Positions 16,794 through 17,608 of a DNA stretch of 18,543 bases are shown here, one piece after another. How positions within the stretch are numbered: the first letter of the stretch is position 1; each line of letters opens with the position of its first letter. Both the position numbers and the translations under genes were made by a program. This DNA comes from Sulfurovum sp. (GTDB lineage Bacteria > Campylobacterota > Campylobacteria > Campylobacterales > Sulfurovaceae). The notes below the pieces were generated by a model, which was not told the origin of the DNA, searched no databases, and was given only the letters and a program-made list of their open reading frames with translations. The stretch covers positions 17,139 to 35,681 of the forward strand of contig JALVGO010000088.1 of the NCBI GenBank assembly GCA_027029065.1, given 5' to 3'.

Positions 16794-17138
16794 GTGTACC
16801 CGATGAAAAAGAAAGAGAGACTTTACATCAGTGACCTGCTGGAAGATCCGGCGTTTTCCTACCCATCCTACTACACGCTCTCCTCTGCCATGATGAAAAA
16901 CGAGATGCTGCACAGCGCTATTGTTGCCCTCCACAGTTTTAACTTCTCCTACTATGAAACCCCAAGAAGCTTCGATGATATTTTCAAAATGTTTGAAAGT
17001 GGTACCTTTCCTATCTTTAAAGAGAAGTATATTGTCGGGTATTTTGGCGGGAAAATGATGTATCTTGAAAGCAACGGATGGAAGGGTATGCCCGCTACGG
17101 AGGCGCTTTTTCAGCTGGAAAACTGGCTGGTTTTTTAA
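16794..17138 (+). CDS. Unrecognised 114-residue protein coupled to the cyclotransferase gene
   Basis: I do not recognise this protein. It begins at GTG 16794, six nucleotides after a GAGGAG ribosome site that lies within the end of the preceding gene; an ATG at 16803 is possible but too far from that site. The protein is soluble-looking, with aromatic stretches (PAFSYPSYYTLSSAM, FNFSYYETPRSFDDIF) and ends GWKGMPATEALFQLENWLVF. It has no evident catalytic motif, signal sequence or membrane helix. Tight coupling suggests it works with the cyclotransferase-like enzyme. A T6 run follows the stop codon. Confidence 0.7.
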   Translation: MYPMKKKERLYISDLLEDPAFSYPSYYTLSSAMMKNEMLHSAIVALHSFNFSYYETPRSFDDIFKMFESGTFPIFKEKYIVGYFGGKMMYLESNGWKGMPATEALFQLENWLVF

Positions 17139-17198
17139 ATAAGTTACACAAAAAACAATTATTATTTTCTAATTAAGACTAATTTTATCTTATTTAGT

Positions 17199-17204
17199 TA
17201 TACT
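17199..17204 (+). promoter_or_regulatory. -10 box of the candidate small RNA
   Basis: TATACT in an AT-rich region. The predicted start at about 17211 is the very first base of the RNA's closing stem, which is the best single argument that the plus strand is the transcribed RNA. Confidence 0.45.
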
Positions 17205-17210
17205 TTCGCC

Positions 17211-17328
17211 ATATCTTAGGTATCGGCAAAGACTTTTTTCATTCTTCCTCCTTTTTAAAAGTTTTTGTTGTATCGACCACCCTCGTACAATCTATTCTAT
17301 AGCCCGTCGGTACCTAAGATTACTTTTT
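17211..17328 (+). ncRNA. Candidate structured small RNA with anti-ribosome-site loop
   Basis: Predicted from base pairing, about 118 nt. The closing stem P1 pairs 17213-17226 with 17307-17320: ten Watson-Crick pairs, ATCTTAGGTA with TACCTAAGAT, then four more including two wobbles. Hairpin P2 pairs CAAAGACTTTT (17227-17237) with AAAAGTTTTTG (17257-17267), 11 pairs with one wobble, and displays a 19-nt loop whose core is TTCTTCCTCCTTT. Hairpin P3 pairs TTGTA plus CGA with TCG plus TACAA (17268-17290, one bulge) around the loop CCACCC. P1 is followed by T5 at 17324-17328, as in an intrinsic terminator. A -10 box precedes it correctly. It matches no RNA family that I know. The opposite strand is an alternative, described in the findings. 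Confidence 0.5.
17220..17243 (-). CDS. Possible eight-codon leader peptide inside the structured element
   Basis: On the minus strand an almost ideal ribosome site AAGGAGGAAGA is followed directly by ATG and eight codons reading MKKVFADT, then TAA. Ribosome site and AUG both fall in the P2 loop when the minus strand is folded. The peptide is too short to judge as a gene. It may be coincidental, because the plus-strand loop is simply its complement. The coordinates cover the ATG to the last sense codon; the stop is adjacent at about 17217-17219. Confidence 0.2.
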
Positions 17329-17347
17329 CACTCCAAAATCCTTCAAA

Positions 17348-17403: not shown

Positions 17404-17409
17404 TATAAT
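17404..17409 (+). promoter_or_regulatory. Extended -10 promoter of the helicase gene
   Basis: TGCTATAAT: a perfect TATAAT with an upstream TGn extension. The predicted start is near 17416, leaving a leader of about 190 nt before the ATG at 17609. Confidence 0.6.
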
Positions 17410-17414
17410 GCGGC

Positions 17415-17608
17415 ACTTTTCTGCAAGAGTGTACTGAACTCCTTTATTTGAGACGCATTGTCTCCTCTATTTTCCACGCTTTAAGCGTGTGACACCAGTT
17501 TGGTATCGGTTGCATAAAACAGGGTTTTACGCCTCTTACATACCGTTGGAACTTTCCAAACGAAGCAAGACAACTTCAACACCGACCATTTTAACACAAA
17601 GACAACAC
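17415..17608 (+). promoter_or_regulatory. Long structured 5' leader of the DEAD-box helicase gene
   Basis: Several hairpins lie in series: CACTTTT/AAGAGTG with loop CTGC near 17415-17432; GAGAC/GTCTC (17450-17464); CACGC/GCGTG within the palindrome CACGCTTTAAGCGTG (17475-17489); TAAAAC/GTTTTA (17515-17529); and TTGGA/TCCAA (17546-17559). The last 50 nt before the ATG are unstructured, A/C-rich and contain no Shine-Dalgarno. In other bacteria, helicase genes of this type have long leaders that control expression at low temperature or by the helicase itself; that this leader does so is inference. Confidence 0.5.

Follow-up and report, generated by a model that had tools for sequence, protein, structure and literature searches.

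Anti-Shine-Dalgarno (anti-SD) small RNAs are exemplified by alpha-r14/NfeR1 of Sinorhizobium meliloti, which is described as carrying a conserved anti-SD motif (CCUCCUCCC) that stays unpaired in hairpins with variable stems, as pairing with translation initiation regions and blocking several mRNAs in this way, and as being both activated and repressed by transcription regulators (PMC10746234). For Helicobacter pylori, the regulator HP1043 is reported to bind TTTAAG-5bp-TTTAAG in promoters without a -35 box, with the site lying at -42 to -26 in the promoter that was examined closely, and its targets are reported to include cytochrome c553 and the small RNA CncR1 (PMC5253667, PMC8345958); a consensus has also been published for CosR of Campylobacter jejuni (PMC3139631).

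The locus described here lies in a stretch of 18,543 nt of Sulfurovum sp. (henceforth called the window), in which an earlier model reading of the letters and open reading frames (the sequence-only reading) had proposed a small RNA. With a probability of roughly 0.7, the locus is an undescribed, free-standing, trans-acting anti-SD small RNA of about 110 nt that is under HP1043/CosR-type control and blocks translation. In this mechanism, a regulator of the HP1043/CosR type, bound at about -39 to -23, would together with the -10 box drive transcription from about 17211, and the RNA would close on itself via its outer helix, P1. The P2 hairpin would display the loop AUUCUUCCUCCUUUU, which would pair with the Shine-Dalgarno region and the spacer of selected mRNAs and keep ribosomes off them, and P3 would present a second C-rich loop. 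We infer that the RNA is expressed, that it represses translation in trans, which mRNAs it may target and where its 3' end may lie.

Structure of the element in the window

The interval 17211-17328 (plus strand) folded into a three-way junction of three helices with a minimum free energy (MFE) of -31.5 kcal/mol (z -7.1; as stable in 0 of 200 shuffles), and the minus strand of the same interval gave a weaker fold (z -2.4). The small RNA gene was delimited by fold, alignment and covariance model as 17211..17322 (plus strand), i.e., the stretch used for the alignment described below, with +1 at about 17211 and a putative 3' end. P1, supported by fold and covariation, has 15 pairs between its 5' arm (17213..17227) and its 3' arm (17306..17320). 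The P2 hairpin (17228..17266), supported by the fold and a comparison with shuffled flanks, has ten pairs (stem 17228-17237/17257-17266) and a loop at 17238-17256 that reads CAUUCUUCCUCCUUUUUAA; the part of this loop at 17239..17253, conserved and predicted to be unpaired, is the candidate anti-SD seed. The P3 hairpin (17267..17291), seen in the fold, has nine pairs and one bulge (17267-17276 with 17283-17291) and closes on the loop CCACCC (17277-17282), which is CUACC or CCACC in relatives. All of these features are on the plus strand. The three helices named in the sequence-only reading were recovered, but not its pair numbers, which had been given as 14 for P1, 11 for P2 and 8 for P3.

In a GC-corrected scan of both strands of the window, 7 of 1844 stretches of 118 nt were as stable as the element or more so; stability alone is therefore not distinguishing, and it is conservation that sets the element apart. 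A search against Rfam yielded nothing at gathering score in the window, the best match around the element (E 3.4) belonging to an unrelated family, in agreement with the earlier statement that the RNA fits no known family.

Search set and distribution among genomes

The search set comprised 175 genomes of one Sulfurovum-like family, reached via loci related to the window; the closest relatives of the helicase encoded in the window were found at L001 (epsilonproteobacterial MAG, 93%) and L002 (Sulfurovum MAG, 90%). BLAST with 17160-17335 as query matched 119 of the 175 genomes, many of them at the promoter box only. For a covariance model, 42 copies (alignment A1) were hand-picked from 63 distinct sequences found by script, with near-duplicates and the most distant copies left out, so that the invariance seen in A1 overstates that of the whole set. 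At a cut-off of E<=0.01, the model matched 82 of the 175 family genomes, the weakest matches (E 0.001-0.01) being uncertain, and 80 of these 82 genomes had a single match. The RNA was also found by script or by eye in G159, G162, G163, G165, and G167, where the model missed it.

Presence followed blocks of genomes when these were ordered by handle number, with 3 in G001-G004, 0/29 in G005-G033, 6/7 in G034-G040, 0/26 in G041-G066, 57/74 in G067-G140, and 16/35 in G141-G175. In a sample of the phylum, 12 of 397 genomes matched the model, and 11 of these were already in the family list; an apparent copy outside the family (G425, L245) was rejected, as by eye it resembles a chance inverted repeat. 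No described small RNA of Sulfurovum was found in the open-access literature searched, judged by titles and the starts of abstracts.

Conservation of stems and strand

In A1, double changes occurred in 11 of the 15 P1 pairs and 96.8% of the cells were paired (42 rows). The covariation score of P1 was 0.387 versus 0.160 in shuffled alignments, none of 500 of which reached it, and versions slid along the alignment scored 0.05-0.09. When all 77 distinct sequences (of 79) were considered, 13 of the 15 pairs had double changes. Evidence from pairs 1-10 is partly circular, because these pairs were used in locating the arms; pairs 11-15 were not so used, and 329 of their 385 cells were paired (77 sequences), compared with a shuffled mean of 212.6 and a shuffled maximum of 236. 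Re-coded P1 stems were seen in L097 and in distant clades carrying AUCUUAAGUAG/CUACUUAAGAU or AUCUCGGG/CUCGAGAU.

RNAalifold recovered P1 alone. A P2 hairpin whose loop contains the anti-SD core was present in 56 of 78 MFE folds (61 of 78 by a slightly different count) versus 21% when the flanks were shuffled. The P3 hairpin was not more frequent than in its control (77/78 vs 94%), and its motif, CUACC or CCACC, was present in 53 of 78 elements. Covariation had been suggested as a check on all three helices: it holds for P1, P2 draws its support from the folds against shuffled flanks, and P3 did not rise above its control. The proposal of a structured small RNA is borne out by the fold in the window and the covariation of P1. 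Across the 78 elements, the mean z was -5.0 on the plus strand versus -2.95 on the minus strand, with the plus strand folding better in 73; the preferred strand is the plus strand.

A functionless inverted repeat, mobile or due to chance, which the seven window stretches of equal stability for their GC content would allow, is scarcely credible in view of the single model match in nearly all matched genomes, of stems that covary while the loop stays, and of the conserved promoter described below. The element is conserved like a gene, and it is a real, undescribed small RNA family.

Conservation of the P2 loop

Every row of A1 (42) carried the loop core AUUCUUCCUCC, as did 59 of 79 sequences in the whole set, and this core was unpaired with a mean probability of 0.94 versus 0.42 for the whole RNA (42 rows). 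CCUCC was retained at the P2 site by 76 of 78 variants, the exceptions being L147 and L175, and the 5' flank of the loop core varied in more distant copies. The conserved, unpaired anti-SD loop that had been claimed is thus present, and the free drift of the loop that had been set as the refuting outcome was not seen. Two or three anti-SD-like stretches per RNA were found at L167, L174, L178, and L179.

The sequence-only reading had also taken the loop as the complement of AAGGAGGAAGAATGAA, i.e., of a Shine-Dalgarno sequence, a spacer and AUG. This is correct in the window, and the core is kept across relatives, but the part facing the AUG is lineage-specific: the CAU is not conserved, with 12 of 78 elements reading TTCATTCTTCCTCCT (TTCATTC) and 43 of 78 reading TTTATTCTTCCTCCT (TTTATTC) before the core. 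The same positions bear on the notion of a functional minus strand, on which AAAGGAGGAAGAATG would begin a short peptide, MKKVFADT. In the window, that strand does carry a good Shine-Dalgarno sequence and an ATG, but the ATG is absent from most copies (those with TTTATTC), the conserved promoter faces the other way and the plus strand is the better folding one, all of which makes a minus-strand function extremely improbable.

Promoter and upstream box

The -10 box TATACT lies at 17199..17204 (plus strand). A loose TATAMT-like -10 pattern was found in all 78 elements, and in 62 of them its first base lies 14 nt ahead of P1, so that P1 begins at about +2/+3; the earlier claim that the RNA bears its own promoter agrees with this pattern and its fixed distance. 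Upstream of the -10 box the sequence reads TAATTAAGACTAATTTTATCTTATTTAG (17170-17197), and it contains, in place of a -35 element, the box ATTAAG-ACTAA-TTTTAT (17172..17188, plus strand), which relatives also keep ahead of the RNA and which is a candidate HP1043/CosR-type site. If +1 is 17211, the box occupies -39 to -23. Compared with the H. pylori HP1043 consensus, spacing and place fit, and the second half fits TTTAAG weakly. At L177 the -10 box is present and the upstream box is degenerate. A Fur box, an informal first idea for the identity of the upstream box, was dropped once the spacing was seen to fit HP1043.

The box was also found upstream of other genes. Twenty sites drawn from the better-scoring matches listed stood ahead of 11 tpx-like genes, 4 small cytochrome c genes, 3 TPP riboswitches, and 2 other genes. 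One example each was checked, with the thiol peroxidase scoring above the NCBIfam cut-off and the cytochrome c above the Pfam cut-off (Cytochrom_C), and the remaining box-preceded tpx and cytochrome c genes were named by likeness. L121-L140 form a box-defined candidate regulon of tpx, small cytochrome c, and TPP-riboswitch-led genes.

In G067, the one RNA-holding genome examined for regulators, 23 Trans_reg_C matches were found. One of these, L411, is clearly orthologous to HP1043/CosR (PDB 8uvx, E 3.7e-91; PDB 2hqr, which we take to be HP1043, E 2.5e-77), and L410 encodes a second, more distant HP1043-like regulator (PDB 2hqr, E 5e-33). The 8uvx entry is described as C. jejuni CosR with DNA (PMC10936212). 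Judging from the box and its position, an HP1043-type protein would bind and control the promoter of the RNA.

Neighbouring genes and 3' end

In the window, the gene downstream of the RNA is a DEAD-box helicase on the same strand, an arrangement that would suit a leader, as a riboswitch or attenuator, acting in cis on that gene. Across 76 loci, however, the nearest downstream ORF (>=60 aa, script calls) was on the opposite strand in 39 and the identity of the gene varied, which points to a free-standing RNA, and the helicase of the window has a -10-like TATAAT of its own at 17404-17409 (read by eye). The RNA is independent of the downstream gene, and a role as its leader is very unlikely.

The helicase leader (17404-17608 in the window) is long and conserved in L001 and L002, with a fold z of -1.3, and a terminator-like hairpin lies within it at 17450-17464; it is possible that this leader is attenuated or autoregulated. 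On the other side of the RNA, the window encodes a 114-aa gene without Pfam match (16794-17138), which ends with a terminator-like site at 17111-17130; by tblastn, its 113-aa homologue was located just upstream of the RNA at 47 of 76 loci.

A T5 run (17324-17328) lies 3 nt past P1 and had been pointed out in the sequence-only reading. Runs of at least five T within 15 nt after P1 were found in 13 of 78 elements, so that a canonical terminator is absent from most copies; the T5 run, a local feature of the window, is not supported as a terminator.

Search for target mRNAs

The exact complement of the loop with AUG (a 16-mer) gave 14 matches in 14 genomes when all 175 were searched; 11 of these fell on the RNA gene itself, and the three elsewhere (L191, L202, L203) had no gene in common, so that no exact target recurred. 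With its AUG part lineage-specific, the complement of Shine-Dalgarno sequence and AUG is not supported as a defined target site. When three mismatches were allowed in 20 genomes, at least 231 matches were obtained versus at least 66 with the reversed pattern, RNA loci included, and an HU-like gene recurred among the matches listed.

For tests of loop tuning, pairing rank and shuffled flanks, start codons were assigned by script, and 656 start regions, taken from two genomes (400 kb of each), served as background. The loop flank AUUCUU was not tuned to average starts, as 6 and 10 of 30 permutations were as good. A nirS-like gene (cytochrome cd1 by Pfam) was present in 88 genomes, and 30 loci were tested. 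Comparison of nirS starts with the loop region gave 28 nt at 97% (G101) and 30 nt at 94% (G119); the mean pairing over the 30 loci was -14.5, which 2 of 40 flank-shuffled loops equalled, and 22 of the 30 starts ranked within the best 10% of the 656 start regions. As a target, nirS was rejected, with -14.9 in 15 RNA holders versus -14.1 in 15 others (p 0.22). The starts of nosZ ranked within the best 10% of the 656 regions at 24 of 25 loci, and this gene was rejected because 14 of 40 flank-shuffled loops were as good (25 loci). The nosZ start at L347 (G039), AAGGAGGAAGAATGATG, is a near full loop complement (-23.8 kcal/mol) and pairs more strongly than the other 24. An oxidase-subunit-I-like gene, below all NCBIfam cut-offs, had 7 of 14 starts in the best 10% of the 656 and was likewise rejected (37 of 40 flank-shuffled loops as good; 14 loci).

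The HU-like gene belongs to the HU/IHF family, its best NCBIfam match being HU-beta, below cut-off. Having first drawn notice by its complementarity, it was tested in 30 further genomes, with a match in 28. The mean pairing was -13.6 in 13 RNA holders versus -7.7 in 15 others (p 5e-4), a difference that is suggestive of the HU-like gene as a target but confounded by kinship. G072, which lacks a start codon where one was projected, remained in this count, and the holders G073 and G086 were without a match; in G106 the HU-like site is present without a covariance-model match.

A loop so strongly conserved without a secure mRNA target would also suit a sponge or protein-binding RNA, i.e., a structured RNA that uses its pyrimidine loop to bind a protein, the ribosome or another small RNA instead of mRNA starts. 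Against this reading, which we consider unlikely, stand the CCUCC core, which is the anti-SD seed core of published small RNAs as they are described (PMC10746234), and the extra anti-SD-like stretches at four loci.

Starts that share the upstream box pair poorly with the loop, with means of -6.0 kcal/mol for tpx (11) and -6.8 kcal/mol for cytochrome c (4). A doubtful, though conceivable, extension of the anti-SD reading is that the RNA is an arm of the essential HP1043/CosR-type regulon that silences other genes, with the HU-like gene as first candidate, and spares tpx and cytochrome c. The regulator would then act directly on tpx and cytochrome c and, via the RNA, mask the ribosome sites of another gene set; the poor pairing of their starts with the loop would spare the co-regulated tpx and cytochrome c mRNAs. 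In the same extension, P1, closing both ends, would serve as a stabilising element in place of a terminator hairpin.

Comparison with known systems

A conserved anti-SD RNA in Sulfurovum would extend an alpha-proteobacterial strategy to another phylum, where its architecture is different. It would also provide a regulator family that is essential but little understood with a testable post-transcriptional output.

CJnc230 of C. jejuni, from the same phylum, is described as repressing mRNAs at the ribosome-binding site by a putative anti-SD (CCUU), but there the anti-SD is single-stranded between two stem-loops, and the RNA lies downstream of flgE, is processed and has flagellar targets (PMC11187230). 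RepG of H. pylori likewise has a C/U-rich loop, by which it base-pairs with the leaders of mRNAs; according to its description, this loop lies in the terminator hairpin and addresses a G-repeat, whereas the loop of the Sulfurovum RNA lies in the internal hairpin P2, and RepG adjoins hp1043 (PMC8295292), a gene not seen beside the Sulfurovum RNA. CncR1, also from H. pylori, resembles the Sulfurovum RNA in being a small RNA whose promoter is bound by HP1043, for which the Sulfurovum promoter has a candidate site; it is set apart by its description as an RNA of the cag region with a terminator (PMC5253667, PMC11821409).

Like alpha-r14/NfeR1, as that RNA is described, the Sulfurovum RNA holds an anti-SD motif in an unpaired loop, here with CCUCC almost throughout. 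The alpha-r14/NfeR1 RNA has three consecutive hairpins, all of which carry the motif, whereas here a three-way junction is closed by the covarying P1, and there is usually one such loop, with AUUCUUCCUCC, the extra anti-SD-like stretches being confined to the four loci named above. In addition, alpha-r14/NfeR1 is alpha-proteobacterial, and the Sulfurovum RNA belongs to another phylum, is without an Rfam match and has an HP1043-type box. On the best reading of this comparison, the Sulfurovum RNA would work like alpha-r14/NfeR1 without being a member of that family.
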